41,676 bases of DNA, taken from NCBI GenBank assembly GCA_018400435.1, contig JAGYMW010000009.1, positions 1-41,676 of the forward strand, given 5' to 3'. The position numbers were made by a program, and so were the translations under genes. The stretch is from Bacillota bacterium (lineage in GTDB: Bacteria; Bacillota; Dethiobacteria; DTU022). Shown here one piece after another: positions 4,011 to 41,611 of this stretch. Numbering within the stretch: the stretch's first letter is position 1; every line of letters starts with the position of its first letter. Below the pieces are notes generated by a model. It was not told the origin of the DNA and did no database searches. It saw only the letters and a list, made by a program, of their open reading frames with translations.

Positions 4011-4070
4011 TTTTCCACTTCCCTTTATCTTGATCTTTATTCATTCATATATGCAATTATGCTATGCTTT

Positions 4071-10896: not shown

Positions 10897-10996
10897 TAAA
10901 ATTACCTCTTTTCTGTGGTGATATCACTTACTGGGCATTATAACATATTCTGTCCGATAATTAACCATTAAAATACATTTATATTGTATGCACAAC

Positions 10997-11025
10997 TTGA
11001 CTTTGATGTAAAATAATGTTATAAT
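10997..11025 (+). promoter_or_regulatory. near-consensus sigma-70 type promoter
   Basis: TTGACT (10997-11002), a 17-bp spacer and TATAAT (11020-11025). Transcription should start near 11031, at or next to the ATG at 11030 of the dockerin-like frame. The transcript would be nearly leaderless for that frame, and it would continue to the MORN-protein gene. Confidence 0.65.
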
Positions 11026-11029
11026 ATGG

Positions 11030-11242
11030 ATGTTTGAAAACACTGCCATTCGTAAAGATCTTAACGGGGACGGCATGATAGATGTAGTCGACGTAACACT
11101 CGTTTTTCAGCATACCCTGGATTTAATCAAACTGGAGTAAAGCATACAGAGACAGGCAGATTTAAACGGAAACAACCTTGTCAATGTCCTTGATACAGCC
11201 ATGCTCATGCGTTATGCCCTCGATATGAGCGAAACACTTTAA
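11030..11242 (+). pseudogene. Dockerin type I-like module, interrupted
   Basis: One frame encodes two calcium-loop repeats typical of a type I dockerin: KDLNGDGMIDVVDVTLVFQ and QADLNGNNLVNVLDTAMLMR, each followed by the helix end (TLDL, YALDM). An in-frame TAA (11138-11140) splits them in the linker, and the second repeat ends at TAA 11242. No longer upstream domain is attached: the frame opens with ATG 11030 right after a promoter. The first repeat has ideal ligands D-N-D; the second has drifted (D-N-N). Likely the decayed 3' end of a larger secreted protein, or two tiny ORFs. It lies directly upstream of the MORN gene on the same strand. Confidence 0.65.
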
Positions 11243-11330
11243 TCTCCTTGTAAAAAAAGACAAAATTATCATGTATAATATTACGGGTTTATTTTTGAGA
11301 AAAATTGGTTAAAGCGGGGAAAAGTAAAAG

Positions 11331-12635: not shown

Positions 12636-12721
12636 GAAGAATCCGGCCACTGCAGACCAAGGCAGGCGGCCGGTCCCGGGTTTTCAAGAAGCTAAATTTT
12701 TTTCAAGAACATGGACATATT

Positions 12722-12745
12722 CCCTCCCCGAGTGGAGGGCTTTTT
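12722..12745 (+). terminator. intrinsic terminator after the MORN gene
   Basis: CCCTCC and GGAGGG pair around a 6-nt loop (CCGAGT), followed by CTTTTTC. It is correctly placed and oriented to end the MORN-protein transcript. Confidence 0.7.
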
Positions 12746-12750
12746 CTATC

Positions 12751-12762
12751 GCTGGCGCCAGC
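12751..12762. repeat. 12-bp palindrome in the gap before the first usp gene
   Basis: GCTGGCGCCAGC is a perfect palindrome just after the terminator. The remainder of 12636-12999 contains no convincing gene. A TTG-started frame (12788) runs into the usp gene but lacks any recognisable protein. Confidence 0.4.
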
Positions 12763-12999
12763 TGACGTTATTGCGGGGGGAAAAGGATTGAACCTGTTCC
12801 TCAACCCTGGCATCTTGCGTATCTTCATGCTTTATCATAACAGCAAGTCATACATCGTTCGCAAATTACCTGAAGATAAAAGATTACAAAACCCTGTTTG
12901 GCATGATAAAATAGATAATGGAAAGATAAGAAAAGATTCAAATGCAACGTGTCAATTCTGCAGCCATAACCATATATTTTCAAACAGGGGGCATGGAAC

Positions 13000-13467
13000 A
13001 TGAAAATGCTGATTTGTGTAGACGGTTCGGAACAAAGCCAAAAAGCACTTGAAAAGGCTGCTTTAATCGCTGCCGGTCCTCATATTGATGAGGTAACGGT
13101 AATTCATATCTTCGAAGGCAAGATGGATCCCTCCTCTTCTGCCATTGCCTGGGGCGGAGAAGGATACGCCATCACCGAAGCAGATATCGAACACTTTAAA
13201 GAACGCTACGAAATGGAAAAGAAAAAGGGTGTAGCAATCTTACAGGAAGCCAAAAGTTTCCTGGCGGGAAAAAATATTGAAGCGGAAACAATCCTGAAAG
13301 ATGGACATCCATCGCATACAATTATCGAAGCAGCGCAGGAAAATGATTTTGACATAATCGTTGTAGGGAGCAGGGGACTGGGTGGTTTTAAAAAATTACT
13401 TCTGGGCAGTGTAAGCAACGCCATCGCCCAGGAAGCGAAAAATTGCTGTGTCCTGATCGTTAAATAA
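13000..13467 (+). CDS. Universal stress protein UspA family
   Basis: 155-residue single Usp domain, ATP-binding type. N-terminal MKMLICVDGSEQSQKALEKA gives the first strand and nucleotide loop. The C-terminal motif GSRGLGGFKKLLLGSVSN matches the G-2X-G-9X-G-(S/T) ATP signature. ATG 13000 follows an AGGGGG site. Usp proteins respond to starvation, energy or redox stress. Its last 13 codons recur almost identically at 16381-16419. It is one of three paralogues in the window (also 19346 and 20370). Confidence 0.92.
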   Translation: MKMLICVDGSEQSQKALEKAALIAAGPHIDEVTVIHIFEGKMDPSSSAIAWGGEGYAITEADIEHFKERYEMEKKKGVAILQEAKSFLAGKNIEAETILKDGHPSHTIIEAAQENDFDIIVVGSRGLGGFKKLLLGSVSNAIAQEAKNCCVLIVK

Positions 13468-13625: not shown

Positions 13626-14339
13626 TCAATTGACATTGAGTGCAGCAATCCCCGAAAGCACCGTTTCATTCAGGTAGCTGTCTTTGATCGCCTCGAACGC
13701 CTCTGCTGCAGAGGCCACATTAACTATCTGACCCTTTACCATCGCTGCAAAAGTATCACCAATCAACTCCGCTTCATGCAGATCATGAGTGACATAAATC
13801 GATGGGATACCATTGTTTTTAAGGGTACGGCGGAATTCAGGCCACAGCTTCTCTTTAGTCGAAGCATCAATGTCACTCAGCGGTTCATCAAGCAGCATAA
13901 CCTCGGGATCGGAGGTCAGCGCACGGGCCAGTGAAACCCGGCTTCGATACCCTCCGCTAAGTTCCAGCGGTTTTTTATTCAGCACATCCTGCAGCCCGAG
14001 CATTTCAACCATTAGCTTCCCGGTTTCAGCAAATCCCCGTCCATTCCTTGAAGCATAGATAATATTATCCCAGGCTGTAAGGTGATTGAACAGGGCCGGG
14101 TGCTGGGGGACATAGCCGAGATTCCTTTCTTCCGGAGGCAAAACCGTTACATCACGGCTGTTAATAAACACTTTTCCGTTGTCACCGCTGATGATGCCGG
14201 CAATTATCTTCAGAAGGGTAGTTTTTCCGCTCCCATTTATGCCGATGATCACCTTAATGCCAGATTCCATTTTCATGGAAACACCGCAGAGCACCTGCTG
14301 GTCACCATAACATTTTTTGATATTTTTAAATTCAAGCAT
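13626..14339 (-). CDS. Molybdate/tungstate ABC transporter ATPase
   Basis: 237-residue ABC ATPase that powers import by the adjoining permease. Walker A GINGSGKTTLLKII is near residue 35. The Q-loop is in YVPQHPALFNHLT, the signature is LSGGYRSRVSLARAL, Walker B is VMLLDEPLSDID, and the switch His is in YVTHDLHEA. It lacks the long C-terminal molybdopterin-binding (TOBE) domain of classical ModC, so it is closer in length to TupC/WtpC-type ATPases. It overlaps the permease stop by 8 bp. Molybdate versus tungstate cannot be decided from sequence. Confidence 0.85.
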   Translation of the reverse strand: MLEFKNIKKCYGDQQVLCGVSMKMESGIKVIIGINGSGKTTLLKIIAGIISGDNGKVFINSRDVTVLPPEERNLGYVPQHPALFNHLTAWDNIIYASRNGRGFAETGKLMVEMLGLQDVLNKKPLELSGGYRSRVSLARALTSDPEVMLLDEPLSDIDASTKEKLWPEFRRTLKNNGIPSIYVTHDLHEAELIGDTFAAMVKGQIVNVASAAEAFEAIKDSYLNETVLSGIAALNVN

Positions 14340-15114
14340 CTTTAACCCTCCGATAATTCATGAAACTCAGGGTGGCAACAAGCAGAGCCGAAATGGCGAT
14401 ACATACTGCACTGGCAGTAATGGCCATCCCCAGCTCCCCTTCCTCCACCTTGCTGAAAACATAGGAGGCCAGCACCTGAGTAGTACCGGGAACATTGCCC
14501 CCGAACATCGCCACTGCCGCAAATTCGCTCAGCGAACGGGCATAACTTAAAACAAACCCGGAAAAAAGTGCCTCGCTGAGGGCTGGAATTACCACCCGGA
14601 GGTACGCTTTATAGGGGATATCACCGAGCGAGCGGGCTACGGCCACAATTTCCGGATCAATTTGATCCACACCCGAAGAGATGGTTCTGGCAGCCAGCGG
14701 ATATGAAACAAAGAACATGGCCATGACCACCGCCACCAGGGTAAATGCCAGGCCGGTCGGGCCGATGAATCCAAAGGCATTGCGGCCGAAAGCAAGAAGC
14801 AGGGCCAGCCCGGCCACCGTATGCGGGATGGCTATAGGCAGATCGTTCATCGTGTTGGCAATTTTATATATAATTGTATTCCTGTTAAACAGGTGGTAAT
14901 AACCAAAACCCAGAGCCAGCAGCAAACTCAGCAGGGCAGCAGCCAGAGCTGCAATGAGCGTATTCTTGAAACTCTGCCAGAAATATATGTCCTGAAAGGT
15001 CTCACTTATCCCCCCACCGGTCAGGCGCCCCAGCAGGGCTACCAGGGGGTAAATAACCAGCAATAGAAACAGGGGGATGAAGAGTACATCAATGATATTT
15101 TTCCTGCTCATCAT
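14332..15114 (-). CDS. Molybdate/tungstate ABC transporter permease
   Basis: About 260-residue inner-membrane permease with 6 predicted helices. The cytoplasmic EAA loop that contacts the ATPase is visible as VAVARSLGDIPYKAYLRVVIP, and SLSEFAAVAMFGGN follows, similar to ModB/WtpB. The track starts at GTG 15129; I prefer ATG 15114, which overlaps the upstream TGA as ATGA and gives MMSRKNIIDVLFIPLFLLL. It lies between the binding protein and ATPase genes, with overlaps at both ends. Confidence 0.85.
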   Translation of the reverse strand: MMSRKNIIDVLFIPLFLLLVIYPLVALLGRLTGGGISETFQDIYFWQSFKNTLIAALAAALLSLLLALGFGYYHLFNRNTIIYKIANTMNDLPIAIPHTVAGLALLLAFGRNAFGFIGPTGLAFTLVAVVMAMFFVSYPLAARTISSGVDQIDPEIVAVARSLGDIPYKAYLRVVIPALSEALFSGFVLSYARSLSEFAAVAMFGGNVPGTTQVLASYVFSKVEEGELGMAITASAVCIAISALLVATLSFMNYRRVKDA

Positions 15115-15878
15115 TCGCACGGCTGCCACCCGTAAATAGTGAATTCATCGTTATGTTCAAAAGCCGTCTCCAGGAATTTCTGAGCCAGCTCTTCATCGCC
15201 ACCTTTTAAAATCGCCGCCCCGAAAATAATATCTCCCGTGTATTCGAGCGGTATTTCTTCAATATATTCCTGGCCGTTGAGCTTGGTTACGCTGCTGTAA
15301 TTTAAACCGGCATCCAGTTCGTTTTCTTCAATCATCAGGGCCAGCTGATTAACCGTTGAAGGACGGGCTTTCAGGTTGCCGGAAGCAACCAGCTCATCCC
15401 AAAGTCCCATGTTTTTGAGGGCCGATTCTGCATAGAAACCGCCCGGCGCCGTCGGCTCGCAGATACCGACTACCACATCTGGTTTAAGCAGATCTTCTAC
15501 GCAAGACACCTTATCGCGCCCCGATTCCGAAACAACCAGCACTTCATGGTCAAGAAGGAATTTTTTACTTTCTGCTACCATTTCGACATCTTCCAGCTTT
15601 TCTATATAAACCCAGTCTGCCGAGAAATAAAGATCACAGGGTTGATCTTCTTCAATCTGGGTATAGAGCCCGCCGGACGGACCGTAATTGGGGATTACCT
15701 CGATACCGGTTTCCTCCTGGAAAATGGCGATTACTTCATCCATCGGTTTTTTAAGTCCTGCCGCAACAAAAAGATCAAGCTGTTCCGCCTGAGATCCGCA
15801 GCCACCGCCAATGATAACCAGGGCCAAAGCTGTTACAATGATTACAACCGTCAACACTTTAAATAATTTTGCAGTCAT
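15111..15878 (-). CDS. modA: Molybdate/tungstate-binding protein, ModA-like lipoprotein
   Basis: 255-residue periplasmic-type oxyanion-binding protein. The signal peptide ends in a lipobox (ALVIIGGGCGS), so it is membrane-anchored. ModA landmarks: LDLFVAAGLKKPMDEV, IPNYGPSGGLYTQIEEDQPCDLYFSA, EVLVVSESG, GICEPTAPGGFYAE, LNYSSV and IFGAAIL. First gene of the leftward three-gene transporter operon; ATG 15878 follows AGGGTG. A 385-nt leader with a probable Moco riboswitch and terminator precedes it. The related tungstate proteins TupA and WtpA are alternatives. Confidence 0.82.
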   Translation of the reverse strand: MTAKLFKVLTVVIIVTALALVIIGGGCGSQAEQLDLFVAAGLKKPMDEVIAIFQEETGIEVIPNYGPSGGLYTQIEEDQPCDLYFSADWVYIEKLEDVEMVAESKKFLLDHEVLVVSESGRDKVSCVEDLLKPDVVVGICEPTAPGGFYAESALKNMGLWDELVASGNLKARPSTVNQLALMIEENELDAGLNYSSVTKLNGQEYIEEIPLEYTGDIIFGAAILKGGDEELAQKFLETAFEHNDEFTIYGWQPCE

Positions 15879-16035: not shown

Positions 16036-16155
16036 TATACTTTCGGATCATCTCCTTTCCACTATCGGGAGGCAACACCGTTTCCCGTGTTACCCTGTCG
16101 GTTTGCCCCCTTGGGTATACATACCGGTAGGAAGACAAACTCGGAGTCAATTGTT
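16036..16155 (-). promoter_or_regulatory. Probable Moco-type riboswitch aptamer upstream of modA
   Basis: Leader RNA segment with ordered elements: GACTCCGAG at the 5' side, an arm GTTTG/CAAAC capped by GGTATGTATACC, then GACAGGG, a stem GTAACAC/GTGTTGC with a GGGAAACG loop, and CCTCCC ... GTGGAAAGGAG. This order, the purine-rich GGAAAGGAG end and the downstream molybdate transporter fit the Moco RNA motif, known to control molybdenum/tungsten cofactor and transport genes. The assignment is from memory of the consensus and not from a covariance search. A strong terminator follows. Two further hairpins (AGGTAA-AGGG-TTACCT and GGTTGA-GATA-TCAACC) lie 5' of it, at 16160-16245. Confidence 0.65.
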
Positions 16156-16270
16156 ATTTCAGGCTCATTCGGCAGGTTGATATCTCAACCCGCTTATTTC
16201 ACCTCCAATCCAGCTACTGTTCAGATAGGTAACCCTTTACCTTGAGGCATTTTCAAGAAATACTACCAAA

Positions 16271-27417: not shown

Positions 27418-29043
27418 TTAAACCAGCTCTTTTACATCTTCATCCACTGTCGAAATGCCGGAAAGGCCAAATTTTTCAACCAGCACATCCGTCACGTTGG
27501 GCGATAAAAAAGCAGGCAGGGTGGGCCCCAGGTGGATATTTTTGACACCCAGGTAAAGGAGGGCCAGCAGAACAATAACCGCTTTCTGCTCGTACCAGGC
27601 AATGTTATAGGAAATGGGCAGCTCATTGATGTCATTCATTTCAAACACTTCTTTTAATTTCAAGGCTATCACTGCCAGGGAGTAGGAATCGTTGCACTGT
27701 CCTGCGTCCAATACCCGCGGTATTCCACCAATTTCACCCAGATCAAGCTTATTGTACCTGTATTTTGCACAACCCGCTGTCAAAATAACGACATCATCAG
27801 GCAGTTTTTTGGCAAACTCAGTGTAGTATTCCCTCGTTTTAGCCCTTCCGTCACAACCGGCCATCACCATGAACTTTCTGATAGCCCCTGACTTTACAGC
27901 TTCCACTACTTTATCGGCCAGTCCTAAAACGGTACCGTGAGCAAAGCCGCCGACAATTTCTCCCGTTTCAATTTCTTGAGGCGGATCGCACTTTTTGGCA
28001 TGTTCAATGATGGGAGAAAAATCTTTTACTTTACCGGTCTCCCGGTCGGGAATATGGGTTAAACCGCTAAAACCAACTGTTCCCGTAATATAGACCCTGT
28101 CTATGTAAGAATCATTTGGCGGCACCAGGCAGTTAGTGGTTAACAGGACAGGCCCTTTGAAAGACTCGAATTCGTCTTTTTGTTTCCACCAGGCATTGCC
28201 GTAATTACCGACGAAGTGATCATATTTCTTGAAGAAAGGATAGCAATGAGCTGGCAACATTTCACCGTGGGTGTAAACATCAACCCCTGTTCCCTTAGTT
28301 TGTTCCAGCAGTTCTTCCAGGTCTTTTAAGTCGTGACCGCTGATCAGGATACCGGGATTATCTTTAACCCCAATATTTACTTTCGTTATTTCGGGGGCGC
28401 CGTATGTCGACGTGTTCGCCTTATCAAGCAGAGCCATGACATTTACGCCGTACTGCCCTGTTTCCAGAGTCAGTGAAATGAGGTCATCTGCAGAAAGAGA
28501 ATCATCCAGGGTTGCCGCCAGAGCTTTTTTGATAAAGCCGAAGATATCATCATCGGAATAGCCAAGGATAAAAGCATGGTCCGCATATGCGGCAAGTCCT
28601 TTTAAACCATAGGTTATCAATTCGCGCAGCGAGCGAATATCTTCATTTTCCGTAACCAGTACTCCTACTTTTCCTGCTTTCTCTTTAATATCGGCATCAT
28701 ATTGCGGTGACCAGATCTGAGCATCATGCATTTCGTTTCTGTTTTCTCCTGTTTTTTCAACTATTTCATCCCTTAAAGCAAGGGCTTCTTTGATTTTGTT
28801 CCTGAAGTAATCTGAATCGAAGTTTACGTTAGTGATGGTAGAAAAAAGCCCTTCGACGATAAACTTGTTGACTTTAGTCTGGTCAATTCCTTTTTCATCA
28901 GCTTTCAGGCTACTTATGGAAATTCCTTTGAGCAGATAAATCAACAGATCCTGCAGTTTTGCCACTTTCGGTGATTTTCCGCAAACACCTTTAATGGTAC
29001 ATCCTTCATTTTTGGCCGTTTCCTGGCACTGAAAACAAAACAT
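27418..29043 (-). CDS. hcp: Hydroxylamine reductase / hybrid cluster protein
   Basis: 541-residue hybrid-cluster protein, implicated in nitric oxide and nitrosative stress and able to reduce hydroxylamine. N-terminal cysteines C3, C6, C15 and C21 ([20 protein letters not shown]) bind the cubane. Hybrid-cluster ligands are seen in the conserved segments [31 protein letters not shown] and [13 protein letters not shown]. Full length for the family. Cytoplasmic. A promoter with an overlapping palindrome precedes it, and an NsrR-like gene follows on the same strand. Confidence 0.95.
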
Positions 29044-29402: not shown

Positions 29403-30080
29403 ATGGATACATTTTGCCCGCTGCAGATCAATTTAAAGAACAAAAAATGCCTTGTTGTAGGTGGCGGTACTGTTGCTGAAAGGAAAGTTACAGTTTTACT
29501 CGCTCATAAAACCGATATCCAGGTGGTCAGTCCATCACTTACCTCAACTCTTAAAAAAATGGTGACCGGTAATGAGATTACCTATCTTTCAGATAGGTAT
29601 CACCCCGTTTACCTTAATAATAAATTCCTGGTGATCGCAGCAACTAACAATCGTGAAGTAAACCGTCAAATTGCAGAGGACTGTATTGCCAGGAATATTT
29701 TGGTTAATTCTGCAAGCGGAACCGAGCAGTGTACCTTTTTTTTACCCGCAATACTGAGAAAAAATTGCTTAACTATTGCTGTTTCAACTTCTGGAGTCAG
29801 CCCTGCTCTTGCCTCCAGAATTAGGGATAAAGTTGATGATTTCCTCGGGGAAGATTACAATGAGTTTCTCTCTTTCTTATCTTTTGCCAGAATGCAGATT
29901 ATCGAACAAATCGAAGAACAACAAAACAGAAAAAAAATACTGGAGCATCTTGCCAGCGATGAATTCTTCTCAGTTTTTAAATTTCTCCCCGCATCCGAAC
30001 GCGAGAAAAAGCTATTACAAATAATCAGCACGGAAAAAGGGAAAATTAAAGATAGCGGAGGAGGAAAACAATCGGATTGA
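29403..30080 (+). CDS. sirC: Precorrin-2 dehydrogenase (siroheme synthase N-domain)
   Basis: 225 residues. NAD-dependent oxidation of precorrin-2 to sirohydrochlorin, with or without iron insertion (Met8p/SirC/CysG-B type). N-terminal PLQINLKNKKCLVVGGGTVAERKV is the Rossmann nucleotide site; VIAATNNREVNRQIAEDC and TEQCTFFLPAILRK follow, then the conserved STSGVSPALASRIRDKV. A dedicated chelatase (cbiX) sits at the other end of the cluster, so the dehydrogenase role is most likely. First gene of the tetrapyrrole cluster; AAAGG 7 nt before ATG. Confidence 0.92.
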   Translation: MDTFCPLQINLKNKKCLVVGGGTVAERKVTVLLAHKTDIQVVSPSLTSTLKKMVTGNEITYLSDRYHPVYLNNKFLVIAATNNREVNRQIAEDCIARNILVNSASGTEQCTFFLPAILRKNCLTIAVSTSGVSPALASRIRDKVDDFLGEDYNEFLSFLSFARMQIIEQIEEQQNRKKILEHLASDEFFSVFKFLPASEREKKLLQIISTEKGKIKDSGGGKQSD

Positions 30081-31009
30081 AAAAATTGAGAATTGGCACA
30101 CGCAACAGCAAACTGGCCTTAATTCAAACCTCCCTGGTAATTGATATTTTAAAAAGGCAGCACCCAGGAATTTCTTGCGAAATAGTTAAAATAAAAACAA
30201 CTGGGGATATTATAAACAATATCCCGTTAGAAAATATTGGCAGCAGCGGGTTATTTATAAAAGAAATTGAATCAGCTTTGCTTAATCATGAAATCGATCT
30301 GGCTGTCCATAGCATGAAAGATGTGCCCACTGCTCTGCCGGATGGGCTTAAAATCGGAGCAATTTTAAGCCGAGAACAACCCTGGGATGTGGTTATCGGC
30401 CGTCATCCAGGCTTAAAACTATCAACCTTAAATAAAGGGGCAGTAATTGGCAGCAGCAGCCAACGCCGTAAAGCCCAGCTTTTGTATAATTATCCTCACC
30501 TCAATATCCAATCGATCCGCGGCAATCTTGACACCCGCTTAAAAAAAGTGCAGAAAGGTAATGTTGATGCAATTATTCTGGCATATGCAGGAGTTAAAAG
30601 GATGGGCTGGGATAATTTGATCACCGAGATAATTGACATTAATATCTGTCTGCCGGCAGTGGGGCAGGGAGCAATCGGGATCGAACTTAGGGAAAACGAT
30701 CATAAAACAGCAGATTTAATTACCATATTAAATAACACACCGACAGAAACAGCAGTCGAGGCAGAACGTTCTTTTCTAAAACGGCTTGAAGGTGGATGCC
30801 AGGTTCCTATCGGTGCTCTGGCCGTGATAAGTAGTGAAAATCTTATTTTACAGGGAATGGTTGCTTCACCGGATGGGAAAACGATGTTTCGCGGTACTAA
30901 GAAGGGAAAACTAAACAGGGCGGAGAAAATTGGTATGGCCCTTGCCGAAGAACTCTTACAGCAAGGTTGTGGAAAAATTTTAGAACTGATCGAGCGGGAG
31001 TGTTATTAA
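30077..31009 (+). CDS. hemC: Porphobilinogen deaminase
   Basis: 310 residues. Polymerises four porphobilinogen units to hydroxymethylbilane. KLRIGTRNSKLALIQTSLV, VHSMKDVPTALPDGL, GSSSQRRKAQL and IRGNLDTRLKKV are present, and the dipyrromethane-cofactor Cys is in RLEGGCQVPIGA. The start is TTG 30077, overlapping the sirC TGA by 4 bp, with GGAGGAGG upstream. cobA-hemD begins 2 bp after its stop. Confidence 0.95.
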   Translation: MKKLRIGTRNSKLALIQTSLVIDILKRQHPGISCEIVKIKTTGDIINNIPLENIGSSGLFIKEIESALLNHEIDLAVHSMKDVPTALPDGLKIGAILSREQPWDVVIGRHPGLKLSTLNKGAVIGSSSQRRKAQLLYNYPHLNIQSIRGNLDTRLKKVQKGNVDAIILAYAGVKRMGWDNLITEIIDINICLPAVGQGAIGIELRENDHKTADLITILNNTPTETAVEAERSFLKRLEGGCQVPIGALAVISSENLILQGMVASPDGKTMFRGTKKGKLNRAEKIGMALAEELLQQGCGKILELIERECY

Positions 31010-31011
31010 AA

Positions 31012-32568
31012 ATGGATAAAAAGCGCAAATGGGTCGGGACAGTCTTCCTGGTCGGAGCGGGACCAGGTGACCCGCAGCTTATTACTATCAAAGGATTAAA
31101 TAAGATCAAAAAAGCAGATGTTATTATCTACGACCGTCTGGTTCCTGACCGCTTGCTGCATTATGCATCCGAAAAAGCTGAATTTATTTATGTCGGCAAA
31201 CTGCCGGATCGTCATACAATGATTCAGGGAGAAATCAATGCTCTTCTCGCTGAAAAAGCCGAACAGGGCTTAACGGTTGTCCGCCTCAAAGGCGGAGATC
31301 CCTTCGTTTTTGGTCGTGGAGGCGAGGAAGCGATCTATCTCGCAGAGAGAAAAATCCCTTTTGAAATAGTACCCGGGATCACATCCGCTGTTGCCGTCCC
31401 TACTTACGCCGGAATTCCCGTAACCCATCGGGGGCTTGCTTCATGTGTTACCATAGCTACAGGCCACGAGGAACCGGCCAAGTCGGTATCTGATTTAGAC
31501 TGGCCAGCACTGGCCAGAAATCCAGGAACCAATGTAATTTTAATGGGCATGGCCAATCTTCCCTTGATTGTTGAACGCCTTACAGCCGAGGGGATGCCAT
31601 CTTCAACCCCCGTTGCTTTAATTAATCGTGGAACAAAGGCTGGGCAGCAAACAATTACCGGCACTTTGAGTAATATTGAGGAGAAAACGCAGGAAGCCGG
31701 TTTAAAAAACCCTTTGATTATAGTAACCGGTAAAGTTGTTGAAATGAGAAAAAAAATAAAATGGTTTGAGCAGAAGCCCCTGTTTGGGAAGCGGATCATT
31801 ATTACCCGGGCCCGTGAACAGACCGGCCCCCTGACAGAAAAATTGGAGGAATTGGGTGCCGACATATTTGAAATTCCAATGATTAAAATTGTTCCTCCGC
31901 TTGATTTCGGACCGTTTGACCGAACCATAGCACAATTGGAAAACTACAGGTGGGTTATTTTTACCAGTAAAAATGGTGTTGAGAGCTTTTTCACCCGTCT
32001 TCGGGAAATAAACAGTGACATTCGGAAATTAAAAAATGCAAAAATATGTGCAATCGGTCCCGCGACGAAAGAAGCCCTTGAAATAAGGGGATTAAGAGTA
32101 GATATTATGCCCTCTGAATATCGGGCTGAAGCACTTCTAACCCAGCTGAAAAGCGAAATAATAAATGGTGACCGGGTGCTTCTTCCGCGTTCAGATATAG
32201 CCAGGGTTATCCTTCCCGAAACACTGAAAGAAATGGGTGCTTTTGTAGATGAAGTTGTAGCATATCGGACTGTTCCAGGGGAAACAGAAAAAGCTTTGCT
32301 CATGAATATCCTAACAGAAGAAAAAATCGACATGATTATATTTACCAGCTCTTCCACAATCAGAAATTTTGTCGCCCTACTCGATAAGAACAAAGATTTT
32401 CAGATATTGGAAAATGTTCGATTGGTCAGCATTGGCCCTGTAACTTCTAAAACAGCCCTGGAATTGGGCCTTTCTATAGATCTGGAAGCTGAAAAATATT
32501 CGGTAGAAGGTCTTGTCGATTTGTTGCTGGCAGATTCGACACAGGACAAAGAAAGAGAGAACAAATAA
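31012..32568 (+). CDS. cobA-hemD: Uroporphyrinogen-III methyltransferase/synthase fusion
   Basis: 518-residue bifunctional enzyme. Residues 10-250 are CobA (SAM-dependent C2/C7 methylation of uroporphyrinogen III to precorrin-2): FLVGAGPGDPQLITIKG, VRLKGGDPFVFGRGGEEA, GITSAVAVPTYAGIPVTHRG and NVILMGMANL. From about residue 257 it is HemD (ring closure of hydroxymethylbilane): GKRIIITRAREQTGPL, WVIFTSKNGVESFF, AIGPATKEAL and FTSSSTIRNF. The track start at 30967 overlaps hemC and adds unlike residues; ATG 31012 is preferred. This fusion is common in Firmicutes. Confidence 0.94.
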   Translation: MDKKRKWVGTVFLVGAGPGDPQLITIKGLNKIKKADVIIYDRLVPDRLLHYASEKAEFIYVGKLPDRHTMIQGEINALLAEKAEQGLTVVRLKGGDPFVFGRGGEEAIYLAERKIPFEIVPGITSAVAVPTYAGIPVTHRGLASCVTIATGHEEPAKSVSDLDWPALARNPGTNVILMGMANLPLIVERLTAEGMPSSTPVALINRGTKAGQQTITGTLSNIEEKTQEAGLKNPLIIVTGKVVEMRKKIKWFEQKPLFGKRIIITRAREQTGPLTEKLEELGADIFEIPMIKIVPPLDFGPFDRTIAQLENYRWVIFTSKNGVESFFTRLREINSDIRKLKNAKICAIGPATKEALEIRGLRVDIMPSEYRAEALLTQLKSEIINGDRVLLPRSDIARVILPETLKEMGAFVDEVVAYRTVPGETEKALLMNILTEEKIDMIIFTSSSTIRNFVALLDKNKDFQILENVRLVSIGPVTSKTALELGLSIDLEAEKYSVEGLVDLLLADSTQDKERENK

Positions 32569-32570
32569 CG

Positions 32571-33761
32571 ATGATCAATATGACAAAACTGTTATGCGGT
32601 CTTGAACATTACGGCGATTCTTTGCGCTACGGTGAAGGTGTCAGCAAGGCCAAATATGGAACAACAGGAAGCCTCGGTCCGGTGGTAGTATGGAACTGTA
32701 CCCGAACCTGTAACCTGAAATGCAGACACTGCTATATGGCATCCGACGGAAAGAATTACGAAAATGAACTTTCAACAAAGGAAGCCAAAATTTTTATTAA
32801 AGGACTGGCTGCTTTTAAAGTTCCCGTTCTTTTACTTTCCGGCGGTGAACCATTGATGCGGCCCGATTTTTTCGAACTGGTCGAATACACAATTAAATGC
32901 GGAATAAGGGTTACCGTTTCAACAAACGGTACTGTTATCGATAAAAATATCGCCCGCAGCCTGAAAAAAATGGGAGTAAGTTATGTCGGCATCAGCATTG
33001 ACGGAATCGGTGAGAAGAACGACCTTTTCAGGGGCAAAAAAGGTGCTTTTGATGCCGCTCTGCAGGGAATTCGCAACTGTCTGGAAGTCAATCAACGGGT
33101 AGGATTGCGTTTTACCATCACCCGTTACAACTATGAGGATCTGGAAGATATTTTCAGGCTTATCGAAGAAGAAAAAATACCCCGGGCCTGCTTTTACCAT
33201 CTGGTTTATTCGGGAAGAGGTTCGAAGATGATAAAAGAAGATGTCAGCCGCCAGGAAAGCAGGCTGGCTGTGGATTTAATTATGGCGAAAACCGTTGATT
33301 TCTATCAGAGAGGCCTGGAAAAGGAAATATTAACGGTTGATAACCATGCCGATGGGGCGTATATATACATGCGGGTGAAAGAAAAAGATCCTGCACTCGC
33401 CGATAAAATCTGGTCTTTGCTAAAAATAAACGGCGGTAACCGCTCGGGAATAGCCATTGGGCAAGTTGACAATCAGGGTTTTGTTCATGCTGATCAATTT
33501 AGTCAGAATCATGTTTTCGGCAATATCAGGGAAAAAAGTTTCGCTGATATCTGGACCAGTACCGATCAGCCCATATTGAACGGCTTGCGAAATCGTAAAT
33601 CACTTTTAAAAGGGCGCTGTGCCAACTGCAAGTGGCTGACAATTTGTAACGGTAATTTTCGGCCCAGAGCTGAAGCCGTTTATGATGATTTTTGGCAATC
33701 AGACCCCGCCTGCTATTTAACTGATCAGGAAATCGTCCCGGATTCAAATTCCTCGCGTTAA
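32571..33761 (+). CDS. ahbC: 12,18-didecarboxysiroheme deacetylase (radical SAM, NirJ1-like)
   Basis: 396-residue radical SAM enzyme. In the siroheme-dependent route it removes the two acetate side chains of 12,18-didecarboxysiroheme to give Fe-coproporphyrin III. The cluster motif C-x3-C-x2-C (CNLKCRHC, residues 47-54) is followed by LLLSGGEPLMRPDF and STNGTVIDK. The C-terminus has a second, SPASM-like cysteine set in GRCANCKWLTICNGNFRP and DPACYL. The N-terminal ~40 residues before VVVWNCTRTC fit NirJ1/AhbC rather than AhbD. ATG 32571 (or 32580) lacks a strong ribosome site; spacing from cobA-hemD is 2 bp. Confidence 0.88.
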   Translation: MINMTKLLCGLEHYGDSLRYGEGVSKAKYGTTGSLGPVVVWNCTRTCNLKCRHCYMASDGKNYENELSTKEAKIFIKGLAAFKVPVLLLSGGEPLMRPDFFELVEYTIKCGIRVTVSTNGTVIDKNIARSLKKMGVSYVGISIDGIGEKNDLFRGKKGAFDAALQGIRNCLEVNQRVGLRFTITRYNYEDLEDIFRLIEEEKIPRACFYHLVYSGRGSKMIKEDVSRQESRLAVDLIMAKTVDFYQRGLEKEILTVDNHADGAYIYMRVKEKDPALADKIWSLLKINGGNRSGIAIGQVDNQGFVHADQFSQNHVFGNIREKSFADIWTSTDQPILNGLRNRKSLLKGRCANCKWLTICNGNFRPRAEAVYDDFWQSDPACYLTDQEIVPDSNSSR

Positions 33762-33848
33762 ATGGGGAATATAAGTATTTAAATAACTGATAAACTACTG
33801 TTTCAAGTTGGAGGATCCTTTCCTGAACAATATGAAGGAGTGTTGAAG

Positions 33849-34829
33849 ATGTATTTCCCAAAGTTGCGCCCACGAAGATTACGCCAAACAGAGACACTGC
33901 GGAAAATGGTTCGAGAAACTTCCCTGGCTGTTTGTGACATGATTTATCCCATGTTTGTCAGTCATGGCCGTGGAGTAAAAACTCCGGTGCCTTCAATGCC
34001 CGGAGTCTTCCAGTTTTCTGTTGATGTAGCAGTTCAAGAAGCTGTTGAATGTGCATCACTGGGGTTACCCGGAATTATTCTTTTTGGCCTGCCGGCATAT
34101 AAAGACGAAACAGGTTCATCCGCTTATGACCCTGAAGAAGCGGTCCAACAGGCTGTAAAAGCAATAAAAAAAGCTGTGCCGGAATTAATTATAATTACCG
34201 ATACCTGTCTCTGTGAATATACCAGTCATGGCCATTGCGGTTTACTAGATGGAAATATAGTCCAGAATGATGCTACACTGGAGGTGCTGGCCCGGGTAGC
34301 CCTTTCCCACGCCCGGGCAGGAGCGGATGTGGTTGCTCCATCAGATATGATGGACGGTCGAGTAGGAGCTATTCGGAAAGCTCTTGATGAAAATGGATTT
34401 GAACAGGTTGCCATTCTTTCTTATGCTGTCAAGTATGCCTCCGCTTTTTATGGCCCCTTCCGTGATGCAGCAGATTCGGCCCCGATGTTCGGTGATCGCC
34501 GTTCTTACCAGATGGATCCAGCCAATATCCGGGAAGCAATTAAAGAAGTCCAACAAGATCTGGCCGAAGGAGCAGACATAGTAATGGTCAAACCAGCCCT
34601 TGCTTACCTGGATGTAATCCGGGCTGTCAAAGAAATGACCACTATACCTGTGGCTACTTACAATGTATCCGGTGAATATGCCATGGTTAAAGCAGCGGCC
34701 AATAACGGGTGGCTAAATGAAAAAGATATTGTGATGGAAATGCTGCTGAGTATGAAAAGGGCCGGAGCCGATCTGATTCTGACGTATTTTGCAAAGGATG
34801 TAGCTCGCTGGTTAAAGGAGACCGACTAA
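33849..34829 (+). CDS. hemB: 5-aminolevulinic acid dehydratase (porphobilinogen synthase)
   Basis: 326 residues. Condenses two 5-aminolevulinates to porphobilinogen. The zinc site [15 protein letters not shown] has the three cysteines of the zinc-dependent class. Schiff-base lysines lie in [18 protein letters not shown] and [30 protein letters not shown] opens the protein. ATG 33849 has AAGGAG at 8 nt, better than the track's GTG 33840. It is set between the two radical SAM genes; the stop shares a base with ahbD (TAATG). Confidence 0.95.
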
Positions 34830-35830
34830 TGATCATTTCATGGAACACAACCCGGCAATGTCACTTAAAATGCAAACATTGTTATCGAGATGCCGGGGAA
34901 AAAGAAAAAAACGAACTATCAACTGAAGAAGGAAAAACACTGATAGAAGAAATCGCCAATTCCGGTTTTAAAATACTTGTTCTTTCCGGTGGCGAGCCGT
35001 TACTGCGGGATGACATTTTTGATTTAACTTCCCACGCTGCCGCATGCGGCCTGCGGCCCGTTTTTGGCACAACCGGTACTACTATTACCCCTCCGGTAGC
35101 CCGTAAATTAAAACAGTCGGGTGCAGCCAGGATCGGGATTTCTTTAGACAGCATTAATCCTGAAGAACATGATCAGTTTCGGGGTGTACCCGGTGCCTGG
35201 GAACAGGCTATCCGAGGAATGAAATATTGCTTCGATGCCGACTTGCCTTTCCAGATCCATACAACGGTAGTTGAACATAATTACCATGAAGTAGAAGCGA
35301 TTACCGATCTTGCTGTTTCCCTGGGAGCAGCGGCTCATCACGTTTTTTTCCTGGTGCCGACTGGACGGGCTAAAGATATTGAAGCAGAAGCGCTGCGCGA
35401 AAAACAATATGAGCATCTGTTGCATCGCATTCTCAAAAAACAACAGGAAGTGTCAATTGAATTAAAGCCGACCTGCGCACCCCAGTTTATGAGAATTGCA
35501 AAACAGATGGGCATGGAAATGCGCTTTACAAAAGGCTGTCTGGCAGGAACTGCTTACTGCTGTATCCTTCCGGCCGGGGATGTTCATCCTTGCCCATATC
35601 TTCCTGTAAAAGTCGGCAACGTAAGGGAACAGCCCTTTTCAGATATCTGGCGGGAAGCGGAAATCTTTAAACAACTTCGCAGTGAAAAATTCGGGGGAAA
35701 ATGCGGAACCTGCGATTATAAAGATATTTGCAGCGGTTGCCGGGCGCGAGCCTATTATTACACAAACGGTGATTACATGGCCGAAGATCCCTGGTGCCTG
35801 TACAGGAGGGGCATATCGGTTGATCAATAA
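34829..35830 (+). CDS. ahbD: AhbD heme synthase (radical SAM, NirJ2-like)
   Basis: 333-residue radical SAM enzyme that oxidatively decarboxylates two propionates of Fe-coproporphyrin III to the vinyl groups of heme b. C-x3-C-x2-C is at residues 11-18 (CHLKCKHC), right at the N-terminus as in AhbD. LVLSGGEPLLRDDIF and GISLDSINPEEHDQFRG follow. The auxiliary-cluster region KGCLAGTAYCCILPAGDVHP, CPYLPVKVGNVRE and CGTCDYKDICSGCRARAYY is characteristic. TAATG junction with hemB; its end overlaps the ahbA start by 11 bp. Confidence 0.9.
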   Translation: MIISWNTTRQCHLKCKHCYRDAGEKEKNELSTEEGKTLIEEIANSGFKILVLSGGEPLLRDDIFDLTSHAAACGLRPVFGTTGTTITPPVARKLKQSGAARIGISLDSINPEEHDQFRGVPGAWEQAIRGMKYCFDADLPFQIHTTVVEHNYHEVEAITDLAVSLGAAAHHVFFLVPTGRAKDIEAEALREKQYEHLLHRILKKQQEVSIELKPTCAPQFMRIAKQMGMEMRFTKGCLAGTAYCCILPAGDVHPCPYLPVKVGNVREQPFSDIWREAEIFKQLRSEKFGGKCGTCDYKDICSGCRARAYYYTNGDYMAEDPWCLYRRGISVDQ

Positions 35831-36311
35831 TAATGCAAGTAGTAAAATCAACAAGAGAGAAAGGCAGTTGCTGGATTTACTCCAGACCGGTTTTTCAGTT
35901 TCATCCCGGCCTTACCTGACTGCTGCTGAAGAAATGAATATGACAGAAGATGATGTAGTCGAAATGGTAAAAAACTTGCGGTCTAAGGGAGTTATACGCC
36001 GCATCGGCGGTCTTTTTAGCGCGAGGAAACTCGGTTTTACTTCCACCCTGGTTGCCCTGCAGGTAGAAAAACAGTGGATAGAAAAAGTGGCTCATGCAAT
36101 ATGCTCTTATCCCGGGGTAACCCACTGTTACGAGAGAAATCATTTCTTTAACCTGTGGTTTACACTAACCAGTAGTGATCGAAACACTGAAAAGAAGATT
36201 CTTACTGAAATTGATGCTTTGCCAGGTGTAGAAAAACTAAGAAATTTTCCTGCCCTAAAAAAATTTAAGCTCAAGGTCAATTTTTCCTTCTCGGAGGACT
36301 CGACTGATTAA
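35820..36311 (+). CDS. ahbA: Siroheme decarboxylase subunit A
   Basis: 163-residue Lrp/AsnC-like protein. Together with AhbB it decarboxylates the C12 and C18 acetates of siroheme. The track start (35682) runs through ahbD; TTG 35820 is exactly 8 nt after AGGAGGGG and gives MINNNASSKINKRERQLLDL. The N-terminal helix-turn-helix-like part ends in RSKGVIRRIGGLFSARKLGF, and the conserved PGVTHCYERNHFFNLWFTL holds the residues used by this family for substrate. It is a catalytic paralogue of a transcription factor, not a regulator. TAATG junction with ahbB. Confidence 0.88.
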   Translation: MINNNASSKINKRERQLLDLLQTGFSVSSRPYLTAAEEMNMTEDDVVEMVKNLRSKGVIRRIGGLFSARKLGFTSTLVALQVEKQWIEKVAHAICSYPGVTHCYERNHFFNLWFTLTSSDRNTEKKILTEIDALPGVEKLRNFPALKKFKLKVNFSFSEDSTD

Positions 36312-36778
36312 TGAAATTAGATGAACTAGACAAAAGAATTATCGCTTGCTTGCAGGGGGATCTTCCTTTAACAAAAACACCTTTTGCCGATTTGGCCGCC
36401 GATTTAGGCATTACGGAAAAAGAACTGCTGCATAAAATTTCTGTCTATCTTGAATCGGACATTATGCGCCGTTTTGGAGCAGTGTTGCACCATCAAGAAG
36501 CTGGTTTTTCGGCCAACGCCATGTGCTGCTGGGTTGTTCCTGAAGAATTGATAGAACATACGGGAAAGATCATGGCTTCATTCAGCGAAGCTTCACATGT
36601 TTTCCAACGTCCTTGTTACCCTGACTGGCCTTATAACCTTTACACTATGATTCATGCCCGGTCAAGAAAAATATTACATAGCGTAGTAAAACAAATGTCC
36701 CTGCAGACCGGCATTGATAGTTACAGGCTACTTTTTAGCAAACGGGAATTTAAAAAAACCAGCATGAAGTACTTTTAA
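36311..36778 (+). CDS. ahbB: Siroheme decarboxylase subunit B
   Basis: 155-residue Lrp/AsnC-like partner of AhbA. LDELDKRIIACLQGDLPLTK opens the chain. SDIMRRFGAVLHHQEAGFSA and ANAMCCWVVPEE, then SHVFQRPCYPDWPYNLYTMIH, are AhbB hallmarks including His and Tyr positions near the siroheme site. It forms a heterodimer in known systems. A terminator-like hairpin begins at its stop codon. Confidence 0.9.
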   Translation: MKLDELDKRIIACLQGDLPLTKTPFADLAADLGITEKELLHKISVYLESDIMRRFGAVLHHQEAGFSANAMCCWVVPEELIEHTGKIMASFSEASHVFQRPCYPDWPYNLYTMIHARSRKILHSVVKQMSLQTGIDSYRLLFSKREFKKTSMKYF

Positions 36779-36835
36779 CCACAGGAATATTTTCTACCGT
36801 TTAATTAATTAAAAACCTGTGGTTATTATTTTTTC
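36777..36835 (+). terminator. long-loop hairpin with U-tract after ahbB
   Basis: AACCACAGG (36777-36785) and CCTGTGGTT (36816-36824) pair perfectly around a 30-nt AT-rich loop, followed by ATTATTTTTTC. It overlaps the ahbB stop. It may terminate or attenuate before hemL. Confidence 0.55.
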
Positions 36836-36893
36836 GCCGGTTTTCTAAAAACAGGAGTACTCATCAATAATAATATTTACAAGGAGCTTTAAT

Positions 36894-38219
36894 ATGTTTA
36901 CACTATCTCAAAAAATGTTCTCCAAAGCCAGGGAAGTAATGCCAGGTGGAGTAAACAGCCCGGTAAGAGCTTTCAAAGCAGTAGAAATGGATCCAATATT
37001 TATCGATCGGGGTACAGGTGCAAAACTCTATGATGTAGATGGAAACAGCTATATCGATTATGTTGGTTCATGGGGTCCTCTAATTCTTGGCCACGCCCAT
37101 CCTCATATTGTTGAAACAATCAACAAAATTGCCCGGAAAGGGACCAGTTTTGGAGCCCCGACAGCTCTTGAGACAGAGATGGCACGCATGGTTATTGAGG
37201 CAATGCCATCTATTGAGCTTATACGAATGGTCAATTCCGGCACCGAAGCAGTAATGAGTGCTCTCCGCCTGGCCAGGGGATACACAGGCCGATCAAAGAT
37301 AATCAAGTTTGCCGGCTGCTATCACGGCCACTGCGATAGTTTTTTAATCAAGGCCGGCTCCGGTGCTGCTACCTTTGGTCATCCTGACAGTCCCGGAGTA
37401 ACAGAAGGAGCAGCTCGCGATACAATTATCATTCAATACAATGATCTTCCTGCTGTTAAAAATGCCTTTGCCACCCACGGTGAAAACATTGCTGCCGTAG
37501 TAGTAGAACCAGTAGCAGCCAATATGGGCCTGATTTTGCCACAGGACAGTTTTTTGGAAGGCTTGCGCAAATTAAGCCGGGATTACGGAGCCTTGCTCAT
37601 TTTTGATGAGGTTATCACCGGTTTTCGCGTCGGATACGGGGGGGCCCAGGAATACTATAATATTCAACCCGATTTAACGACCCTTGGCAAGGTTATCGGC
37701 GGTGGAATGCCGATTGGCGCATACGGTGGAAAACGGGAAATCATGGAACAGGTTGCACCCAGTGGACCGGTTTACCAGGCCGGTACTCTGTCGGGGAATC
37801 CTCTTGCAATGGCCGTCGGGATTGAAACTCTGAAAATATTACAAACAAATAGATTCTACGAAAACCTGGTTGTTAAACGTGAAAAACTAACTTCCGGCCT
37901 GGCCACTGCTGCTCACCGGCACGGCGTAAAGATTTACCAGAGTTCTATTGGTTCAATGTTCGGAACTTTTTTTAGTGCCGATCCGGTTTTTAATTTTAAA
38001 GATGCTCTTAAGTCGGATTCAGAGGCTTTTAAAATATTTTTCCGGACCATGCTGAAAGAAGGAGTTTATCTAGCTCCATCACCTTTCGAAACCGGATTTA
38101 TTTCATCGGCCCACAGCGAAGAAGATATAACCTTCACCATTGAAGCCGCCGATAAAGCTTTTGAAGCAGTGAAAAAATATTTTAGTGAAAAAGATAATTC
38201 GCCAAAACTTGCTCAGTAA
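36894..38219 (+). CDS. hemL: Glutamate-1-semialdehyde 2,1-aminomutase
   Basis: 441-residue PLP enzyme that converts glutamate-1-semialdehyde to 5-aminolevulinate. [71 protein letters not shown] and [14 protein letters not shown] are standard. The PLP-binding Lys is in [17 protein letters not shown] near residue 266. AAGGAG precedes the ATG. It begins the second block of the cluster, after the hairpin. Confidence 0.96.
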
Positions 38220-38287
38220 AATTCATTAAGTGAAACAAAATTCTATCGTTGTGAAATTTCAATATTTATACTAATGGGGTTTGAAAA

Positions 38288-39691
38288 ATGCACATATTGG
38301 TTCTGGGAATCAACCATAAAACCGCAACCTTGGAAATCAGAGAAAAAATTGCTTTCGCCGAGAATCACATCAGGCAAGCCTACGATACTTTAAAAAAGGT
38401 TCATTCCGTAACCCAATGCATAATTTTGTCGACCTGCAACCGAACTGAAATTTACGCTGTAGTTGAAGATCTCGTTGAGGGTAAGAATATTTTGCTTTCA
38501 ATGCTTCAAGAAGTTAAAGGAATCAATCCAACGGAAATCGAGACAAACCTGTATTATTATTTCAACCGTGAAGCAGTATCTCACCTTTTTCAAGTCACAG
38601 CCGGCCTTGATTCGATGATTCTCGGTGAAACCCAAATCCTTGGCCAGGTAAAAAATGCTTACGAAAAAGCCATAGAAAACGGTATGGTGAACAAGATCCT
38701 GCATGGCTTATTTCAACGCACAGTCAGCTGTGCAAAAAAAGTGCAAACGGAAACAGAGATTAACTGCAATTCTCTTTCTATAAGTTACACAGCCCTTGAT
38801 ATGATCAGGAAAAAGCTGGACCATTTTGAAGAAATGCGGGTCCTTGTGATCGGCGCCGGCAAAATGTCACGCCTTACTTTACAACAACTGCACTCGTGGG
38901 GAGTAAAAAATATTAAGGTAACCAGCCGCACCTACCAGCGAGCAAAAAAATTAGCTGAGCTCTTTGATGCAATCACTATAGACTTTAAAAATTTGAAAGA
39001 TCTGCTTACAGGTGTGGATTTAATAGTAAGCTCTACCGGGGCACCCCACCTCCTGATCCATAAAGAAGAAATGGCCACAGTGATGAAAGAGCGCAATCAA
39101 AGACCAATATTTATCGTTGATATCGCTGTTCCCAGGGACATTGATCCGGAAGTTGCAGTTTTAGATAATGTCTTTCTCTATGATATGGACACCCTCCAAG
39201 AGGTTATCAATACAAATCAGAAAGAAAGAAAAAAAGAAGCGGCAATGGCCAGAAATATGATTATTGCCGAAACAGAACAATTTCAGGCCTGGTTTAAAAC
39301 GCTTGAAGTCGCCCCCGTGATTAAAGCTCTTCGTCATAAAACCGACTTAATCAGGCAAGAAAAAACAGACAGCTACATAAAAAACAAACTGGGTCAATTA
39401 AATAAGAAAGAAAAAGAAGCAGTCGATAATTTAACTAAATCCATTGTCAACGCCATTTTAAAAGAACCGATTTTAAAGATGAAAAATACCTCATCACAAG
39501 AAGAAGCGAAAATTTTCATTGATTCTCTGCGCTTTCTGTTTGATTTACACAAGGATATATTTAATGAAGAAGGTTCTCTCGAAATCATTGAGAATAAAAA
39601 ACAGGGACCTGTTATAGAGAAAGGAGAATACTGGAGTGAAAACCGGCCTGATTATCTTGGGACACGGAAGTCGAATACAGGAAGCAGCTGA
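38288..39691 (+). CDS. hemA: Glutamyl-tRNA reductase
   Basis: 467 residues. NADPH-dependent reduction of glutamyl-tRNA to glutamate-1-semialdehyde, the entry step of C5-pathway tetrapyrrole synthesis. The catalytic Cys50 is in ILSTCNRTEIYAV; GLDSMILGETQILGQVKNAY, VLVIGAGKMSRLTLQQL and FIVDIAVPRDIDPEV follow, with a C-terminal dimerisation domain. The last ~19 codons are a polar tail and overlap cbiX by 56 bp. GGGG lies 8 nt before the ATG. Confidence 0.96.
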   Translation: MHILVLGINHKTATLEIREKIAFAENHIRQAYDTLKKVHSVTQCIILSTCNRTEIYAVVEDLVEGKNILLSMLQEVKGINPTEIETNLYYYFNREAVSHLFQVTAGLDSMILGETQILGQVKNAYEKAIENGMVNKILHGLFQRTVSCAKKVQTETEINCNSLSISYTALDMIRKKLDHFEEMRVLVIGAGKMSRLTLQQLHSWGVKNIKVTSRTYQRAKKLAELFDAITIDFKNLKDLLTGVDLIVSSTGAPHLLIHKEEMATVMKERNQRPIFIVDIAVPRDIDPEVAVLDNVFLYDMDTLQEVINTNQKERKKEAAMARNMIIAETEQFQAWFKTLEVAPVIKALRHKTDLIRQEKTDSYIKNKLGQLNKKEKEAVDNLTKSIVNAILKEPILKMKNTSSQEEAKIFIDSLRFLFDLHKDIFNEEGSLEIIENKKQGPVIEKGEYWSENRPDYLGTRKSNTGSS

Positions 39692-40010
39692 AACTCTGGC
39701 AGACATTACTGCTACGGTCAAAAAAATGGTTCCTTACGAAGAAGTCGAATATGCCTTTTTCCAGTTTTCAAAACCGGATCTTTCAGAAGCAACAAACAAA
39801 TTGATCCGTTCAGGTATAAATCGCATTTTTATTATACCGGCGCTATTTGCCAGTGGCAAACACCTGACAGTCGACATACCACAAATAATTGATAAATTAA
39901 AAGTAAAGAACCCCGGAGTTAAAATGTATATAGGAGAACCTCTCGGAGCCGATTTACGCATTGTCGAGATTCTGTTAGACCGAATTCGCGAACTCGAAAC
40001 TTCAATCTGA
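39636..40010 (+). CDS. cbiX: Sirohydrochlorin chelatase, short CbiX type
   Basis: 124-residue single-domain class II chelatase. LIILGHGSRIQEAAETLADI and PALFASGKHLTVDIPQII carry the two metal-binding histidines. Short CbiX/SirB proteins insert Co or Fe into sirohydrochlorin; next to sirC and ahbA-D the iron (siroheme) role is the better inference. The start is GTG 39636 with AAGGAG 9 nt upstream, inside the 3' end of hemA. Last gene of the cluster. Confidence 0.9.
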   Translation: MKTGLIILGHGSRIQEAAETLADITATVKKMVPYEEVEYAFFQFSKPDLSEATNKLIRSGINRIFIIPALFASGKHLTVDIPQIIDKLKVKNPGVKMYIGEPLGADLRIVEILLDRIRELETSI

Positions 40011-40202: not shown

Positions 40203-40976
40203 TTAATGAGATACTTTCACTGCTTTTTTAATAACATATTCACTGAGCTCAGTTATTCCACAGGCCAAAGAAATCTTTTTAAATAATTCTTTTTTGTATT
40301 CCTTTTTCCACCATGAACCTGCAAGAATCGTTACAGGAGTATCCAGGAATGCCTCCGGATACATGGGGGTCGATGCACCGATCATGATTATCTCCCTGGC
40401 TTTTTCACACATTGATATAATCTCTTCTGCCGAACCGTTAATAATACTGGTCCCGCTCAGCATCACAATATCGGCATGAGGCAATATACGGGGCTGCTCT
40501 TTCATAAGCACAACTTCCCCTTTAAATCCGCCGCATTTCGATATGCCTTCATCAAAAATATACAACTTTTTCACTCTTGAACTGAACATCTGGACGAGGG
40601 GCGCAATAAAACCGATCATAGCCATTGTATCGGTTTTCTTCAAGTCAACGCCGAACGGGCGATCGGGGGTTTCGACATCTTCCATGTCCTGGGCTCTTGA
40701 TGCTGCAGCCAGGACTGCTGTCCCTATGCCCCGCTGAACATTGTCCCGGCCCGATTCAGCCCACCCGGCAATAGAAGAGGCTTCTTCCCCAATTACCTTT
40801 TGCCCGTACGGGAATATGGAACAGCCGGACTTCAGACCTTCCCTGAGGACATAAGATACCCCCAGGAAACCGTTGTCCAATTCAACTGCCATAAGGGATA
40901 TACCAATTACCAGGTCGCGCACCTTTCTACCTGTTAAAAAAGGCTGTGCCGTTTTTAGAATTGATTTAATGAGCAT
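40203..40976 (-). CDS. DUF4213/DUF364 family protein, putative metal chelation
   Basis: 257-residue protein resembling the DUF4213 plus DUF364 pair annotated as putative heavy-metal chelation proteins. The N-terminal half (IGISLMAVELDNGFLGVSYVL, AGWAESGRDNVQRGIGTAVLAA) fits DUF4213. From about residue 115 on, IGFIAPLVQM, ILPHADIVMLSGTSIINGS and MIGASTPMYPEAFL fit DUF364. It may act in metal or cofactor handling; there is no direct evidence. ATG 40976 has AGGAGGT at 8 nt. It converges on the tetrapyrrole cluster. Confidence 0.8.
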   Translation of the reverse strand: MLIKSILKTAQPFLTGRKVRDLVIGISLMAVELDNGFLGVSYVLREGLKSGCSIFPYGQKVIGEEASSIAGWAESGRDNVQRGIGTAVLAAASRAQDMEDVETPDRPFGVDLKKTDTMAMIGFIAPLVQMFSSRVKKLYIFDEGISKCGGFKGEVVLMKEQPRILPHADIVMLSGTSIINGSAEEIISMCEKAREIIMIGASTPMYPEAFLDTPVTILAGSWWKKEYKKELFKKISLACGITELSEYVIKKAVKVSH

Positions 40977-41188: not shown

Positions 41189-41611
41189 TTACTGCTCATT
41201 TTCTTTGATAAGTTTCTCAATATATTGTTTATCTCTTTCACTGATGCTACACCTGGCAACTACTCCTACAGCGAATCTGTTACCTTTTATTTTTACCGAT
41301 TCGGAGAGAATTTCGTTAACCAGGGCGTTCAGGCTTTTCCCTTCTGCTTTAGCTTCTATTGCAATGCTTTTATGAAGCTCAGGATTAGTACGTACCACAA
41401 ATCTGCCGGAATACGGTTTAACCGGATCTTCGCCCCTTTCAGCGCAAAAATCGAGATAATCATCTATAGAATCCTGGAAAGCCTGCTTTAGTTCGTCCAC
41501 AGATGTTCCCTCAAATGTAACAACGTCGCTGATATTTATTACTTCACCATGAAAGATATTTGACTCTTCATCAAACTCTATCTTAGCATAATAACCCTTA
41601 TATTCCATCAT
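41189..41611 (-). CDS. HicB-family antitoxin-like protein
   Basis: 140 residues. The N-terminal HicB/UPF0150-like fold is MEYKGYYAKIEFDEESNIFHGEVI and VTFEGTSVDELKQAFQDSIDDYL. A ribbon-helix-helix DNA-binding tail follows (SGRFVVRTNPELHKSIAIEA, KSLNALVNEIL), and then a basic/charged end. This two-domain form is the DNA-binding antitoxin of HicAB systems, and also occurs alone. Two consecutive ATG codons (41611, 41608) follow GAGGTGGGAG. The partner would lie upstream, where the window ends. Confidence 0.82.
   Translation of the reverse strand: MMEYKGYYAKIEFDEESNIFHGEVINISDVVTFEGTSVDELKQAFQDSIDDYLDFCAERGEDPVKPYSGRFVVRTNPELHKSIAIEAKAEGKSLNALVNEILSESVKIKGNRFAVGVVARCSISERDKQYIEKLIKENEQ

Follow-up and report, generated by a model that had tools for sequence, protein, structure and literature searches.

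Anaerobic synthesis of heme b from siroheme by the Ahb enzymes has been studied biochemically in Desulfovibrio and Methanosarcina barkeri. For the Desulfovibrio siroheme decarboxylase, the active-site residues of AhbA and AhbB have been named, and the position of AhbB Tyr100 has been discussed as a helper in decarboxylation (PMC4145669). AhbD of methanogens and sulfate reducers carries a full SPASM motif with two auxiliary clusters (PMC10452713), and in Dehalobacter the siroheme-to-heme route has been assigned by identity (PMC4751268). Homologous radical SAM and AsnC-like proteins, also concerned with siroheme-derived macrocycles, are encoded in the nir operons of denitrifiers such as Ruegeria and Pseudomonas.

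Here we describe a gene cluster in a window of DNA (the whole 41,676-nucleotide stretch analyzed) from an anaerobic, uncultured member of the Bacillota that we interpret, with a probability of roughly 0.92, as a predicted operon for anaerobic heme b synthesis via siroheme, which would be the only heme route visible in this organism. The pathway is already known and the gene order is common to many related bacteria; the find is real but ordinary.

Gene content and order of the cluster

The cluster comprises eleven adjacent genes spanning 10.6 kb of the plus strand (29403–40010) in the order sirC-hemC-cobA/hemD-ahbC-hemB-ahbD-ahbA-ahbB-hemL-hemA-cbiX. We scored ten of the eleven against NCBIfam models and several against Pfam, using curated cut-offs, and found scores that were mostly far above them, which bears out the names that the earlier note had given these genes; their positions and strand are also as it stated.

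All genes of the route are present, and we infer the activity of each enzyme. HemA (glutamyl-tRNA reductase, 38288–39691; TIGR01035, 445 bits) and HemL (glutamate-1-semialdehyde 2,1-aminomutase, 36894–38219; TIGR00713, 635 bits) would produce 5-aminolevulinate. HemB (porphobilinogen synthase, 33840–34829; NF006762, 521 bits), HemC (hydroxymethylbilane synthase, 30077–31009; TIGR00212, 361 bits; TTG start) and HemD would then yield uroporphyrinogen III. The last of these is fused to CobA in a single gene for uroporphyrinogen-III C-methyltransferase and uroporphyrinogen-III synthase (31012–32568; TIGR01469, 297 bits; PF02602 (HEM4/HemD), 240 bits), and its CobA part would methylate uroporphyrinogen III to precorrin-2. 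SirC (precorrin-2 dehydrogenase, 29403–30080; TIGR01470, 137 bits against a cut-off of 62; PF13241) would oxidize precorrin-2 to sirohydrochlorin, into which CbiX would insert iron to give siroheme. The siroheme-making set, namely CobA, SirC and the candidate iron chelatase CbiX, thus lies entirely inside the run, with iron as the presumed metal of CbiX. From siroheme, AhbA and AhbB would remove two acetate carboxyls, AhbC would take off the other two acetates and AhbD would convert two propionates to vinyls, giving heme b.

Neighboring genes overlap (for example, by 4 bp between sirC and hemC and 56 bp between hemA and cbiX) or are separated by gaps of 2–115 bp, and most starts in the run are preceded by a sequence resembling a ribosome-binding site; this spacing and these sequences suggest that the eleven genes are likely to form a single operon. 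For ahbA, a TTG at 35820 behind CAGGAGGGG was preferred over the start at 35682, which it most likely replaces as the true start. Promoter and terminator scans of the operon gave no more signal than shuffled sequence, and an Rfam search revealed no riboswitch upstream of it. The cluster is flanked by two genes on the opposite strand, an unrelated hybrid-cluster protein gene upstream (27418–29043) and a DUF364 gene downstream (40203–40976).

Elsewhere in the window, the sole Rfam match was a Moco/tungsten riboswitch (16036–16158, minus strand; RF01055, 68.9 bits) immediately upstream of a set of ABC transporter genes (13626–15878). The window also encodes a 434-residue protein with MORN repeats (11331–12635) and a HicB-family antitoxin-like protein (41189–41611, minus strand).

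The earlier note had called the order unusual for its mixing of early and late steps, a view that does not hold up: the core order cobA/hemD-ahbC-hemB-ahbD-ahbA-ahbB-hemL recurs in 15 of 80 named loci around ahbC, most of which carry sirC-hemA-hemC immediately upstream. Operons of Peptococcaceae and relatives (Desulforamulus, Pelotomaculum and Acididesulfobacillus; L040–L049) share both this core, with sirC, hemA and hemC upstream, and the Firmicutes-type AhbC and AhbD, but they place hemA between sirC and hemC and lack cbiX, whereas in the window hemA follows hemL and overlaps cbiX. Only this position of hemA, after hemL and joined to cbiX, is particular to the window. The closest relatives are Dethiobacter-type clusters (L038 and L059; AhbC 69% and AhbD 79% identity), which have the same core order and a CcsB/HemX-like gene after hemA; the nearest named relatives by these genes are Dethiobacter metagenome bins. 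At these two loci the ahb cluster sits between ccmB/C/E/ccsB genes and multiheme cytochromes, whereas in the present genome a different contig carries the ccm genes. As a separate observation, at 10001–13208 of plasmid pSb31l of Paenibacillus polymyxa the set is limited to ahbC, ahbD and a single AsnC-type gene that matches AhbA as well as AhbB, and the annotation of the surroundings lists no further heme genes.

The chelatase and the use of siroheme

CbiX (39636–40010; PF01903, 96 bits) is a short, CfbA-like sirohydrochlorin chelatase of the CbiX/SirB kind. Its 124 residues retain His10 and His76 when aligned with SirB and CfbA structures, and we take these to be the metal-site positions of CfbA/SirB-type chelatases. 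The metal is not readable from the sequence, given that the best NCBIfam match is the nickel-chelatase model CfbA (91 bits, below cut-off); to our knowledge, F430 is not to be expected in a bacterium. No candidate other than CbiX was seen for the obligatory insertion of iron, and this protein is most likely a sirohydrochlorin iron chelatase, because no cobalamin ring methyltransferases were found and iron insertion would otherwise be without an enzyme in the operon. Among the 80 named loci, cbiX was found inside the cluster elsewhere only in Alkaliphilus transvaalensis, again beside hemA, and the chelatase of the other loci is presumably encoded elsewhere. The cbiX gene in the run would provide a step absent from most sister operons.

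CobA, SirC and CbiX are also common to the pathways for siroheme and vitamin B12, and among the CbiX families are chelatases for cobalt and for nickel. The cluster might thus serve mainly to supply siroheme to a sulfite or nitrite reductase, with a cobalt branch to vitamin B12 and heme as a side product. This is very unlikely: we found neither a NIR_SIR domain, as in siroheme-type sulfite and nitrite reductases, nor the cobalamin ring methyltransferases CbiL, CbiH and CbiF in the draft genome (1.97 Mb in 137 contigs and 87% complete, so that absences are not proof), whose PF00590 matches were CobA and YabN only, and AhbA–D would be useless to those branches. The cobalt branch, which the earlier note had considered as a possible role for CbiX, is not supported, given the lack of ring methyltransferases in the draft, and CbiX is better read as the sole candidate for iron insertion.

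An outlet for heme b is suggested by contig 49, where CcmA, CcmB, CcmC, CcmE and CcmF adjoin a rhodanese-fused cytochrome with ten CXXCH motifs; this Ccm system, encoded apart from the window, would attach the heme to c-type cytochromes. Here siroheme most likely serves only as a precursor of the heme of such cytochromes, because a Ccm operon and a multiheme cytochrome are present and the draft shows no siroheme-type reductase, d1-domain protein or cobalamin ring methyltransferase. A fuller proposal, that siroheme serves no separate purpose in this lineage and that the operon has taken in the short CfbA-like protein as a dedicated sirohydrochlorin iron chelatase, is tentative, with odds a little short of even. 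No NapC/NrfH-type cytochrome was found in the draft genome. The gene for the cytochrome with ten CXXCH motifs and two rhodanese domains (contig 49, 4251–6450, minus strand) contains one in-frame TGA after the N-terminal membrane and CXXCH part; this codon is possibly selenocysteine, and the strength of the hairpin that follows it does not exceed what shuffled sequence gives.

Siroheme decarboxylase and the two radical SAM proteins

AhbA (siroheme decarboxylase alpha, 35820–36311; NF040708, 153 bits) and AhbB (beta, 36311–36778; NF040707, 183 bits) both exceed their curated cut-offs of 140 and 125 bits. We aligned them to the Desulfovibrio enzyme structure 4czd and matched the published residue numbering by counting along the alignment. 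H101 and R105 of AhbA (numbered from 35823) align with the iron-binding His115 and the catalytic Arg119 of Desulfovibrio and are invariant in 40 of 40 aligned relatives. AhbB retains H96, R100 and K149, equivalent to Desulfovibrio His98, Arg102 and Lys152, with the histidine and arginine unchanged across all 39–40 aligned relatives. AhbB has Phe98 where the Desulfovibrio protein has Tyr100, a position occupied by tyrosine in 37 of 39 relatives. The window thus shares the active-site histidine and arginine of AhbA and AhbB and the AhbD SPASM motif with the studied pathways of Desulfovibrio and M. barkeri, but differs from them in this phenylalanine and in having AhbC and AhbD of a sister, Firmicutes type.

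AhbC (32571–33761) and AhbD (34829–35830) are predicted to be the radical SAM 12,18-didecarboxysiroheme deacetylase and heme synthase, respectively. AhbC contains CX3CX2C and a C-terminal CX2CX5CX21C, and AhbD contains CX3CX2C and the full eight-cysteine SPASM motif CX20CX17CX36CX2CX5CX2CX18C, whose spacing equals that of the published AhbD motif (PMC10452713). AhbC scores 686 bits on TIGR04054 (NirJ1), above its cut-off, and 512 on the NCBI AhbC model, below the cut-off of 650; AhbD scores 551 bits on TIGR04055 (NirJ2), above its cut-off, and 389 on the NCBI AhbD model, below the cut-off of 500. Likewise, the proteins tested from Dethiobacter-type loci, Desulforamulus and Pelotomaculum passed the NirJ1 and NirJ2 cut-offs and fell under those of AhbC and AhbD, whereas the proteins of Desulfobacteraceae and Methanosalsum matched the AhbC and AhbD models. 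A search of the PDB by sequence returned no structure near AhbC, only distant radical SAM enzymes, and in the literature within reach we found no assay of AhbC or AhbD of the Firmicutes type.

NCBI describes NirJ1 and NirJ2 as putative heme d1 biosynthesis proteins, and since both window proteins exceed these cut-offs, the pair could in principle be NirJ-type and the cluster could make heme d1 rather than heme b. We consider this extremely improbable. A maximum-likelihood tree built from 66 proteins by a quick search, with SH-aLRT support, unites all AhbC-type proteins, including those of the window, Methanosalsum and Desulfobacteraceae, in one group (SH-aLRT 95) with NirJ outside it; NirJ forms its own group (100) and the AhbD-type proteins a third (100). 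The earlier note had singled out the phylogeny of the radical SAM genes as a point on which its reading might fall, and the tree places them outside the NirJ d1 clade. True NirJ, which is found beside nitrite reductase genes, also has another best model: a Ruegeria nir-operon protein matches the NirJ equivalog TIGR04051 with 610 bits, whereas the window protein reaches about 402, below the cut-off of 515. Unlike the window, the nir operons of denitrifiers carry cytochrome-d1-domain genes alongside, and the draft genome has no match to that domain (PF02239; NirS, NirF and NirN). The Desulforamulus and Pelotomaculum loci score as NirJ1 and NirJ2 too, and a 2024 review gives these as other names of AhbC and AhbD (PMC10991733). 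We therefore reject synthesis of heme d1 on the basis of the tree, the model scores and the lack of a d1-domain protein in the draft. The NCBI labels are misleading for this clade, because its genes are found within operons for heme b and no d1 protein is seen in the present genome.

Heme routes in the genome and its relatives

The earlier note had proposed siroheme as the only route to heme, and searches of the draft genome agree: we found no match to HemE, no member of the ferrochelatase HemH/CpfC family (PF00762) and no HemN over cut-off. Although the genome is just 87% complete, a second, classical or coproporphyrin route hidden in its unassembled part has only the slightest chance of being real, with all three families absent from the draft and HemE over cut-off in 0 of 40 genomes of the order, this one included. 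A weak HemN-like match on contig 115 is instead PylB of pyrrolysine synthesis (3908–5056, minus strand; 510 bits), so that pyrrolysine may be produced in this organism and inserted at some of its TAG codons.

AhbB and AhbD occur together in 4 of the 40 genomes, namely the present genome, a second from its family and two others from its order. Five relatives (G005, G008, G014, G015 and G023) encode cytochrome c assembly proteins but have no AhbB, no HemE over cut-off and no strong AhbD match, which points either to heme uptake or to gaps in their drafts.

Together, these results describe a clean and complete siroheme route, as predicted from sequence, in an apparently Dethiobacter-like member of the Firmicutes, most of whose sampled relatives are seemingly without heme synthesis. 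If the inferences on the chelatase and on the end use of the heme are true, siroheme would be a mere stepping stone here, and the organism would be a convenient one in which to assay the Firmicutes-type AhbC and AhbD.
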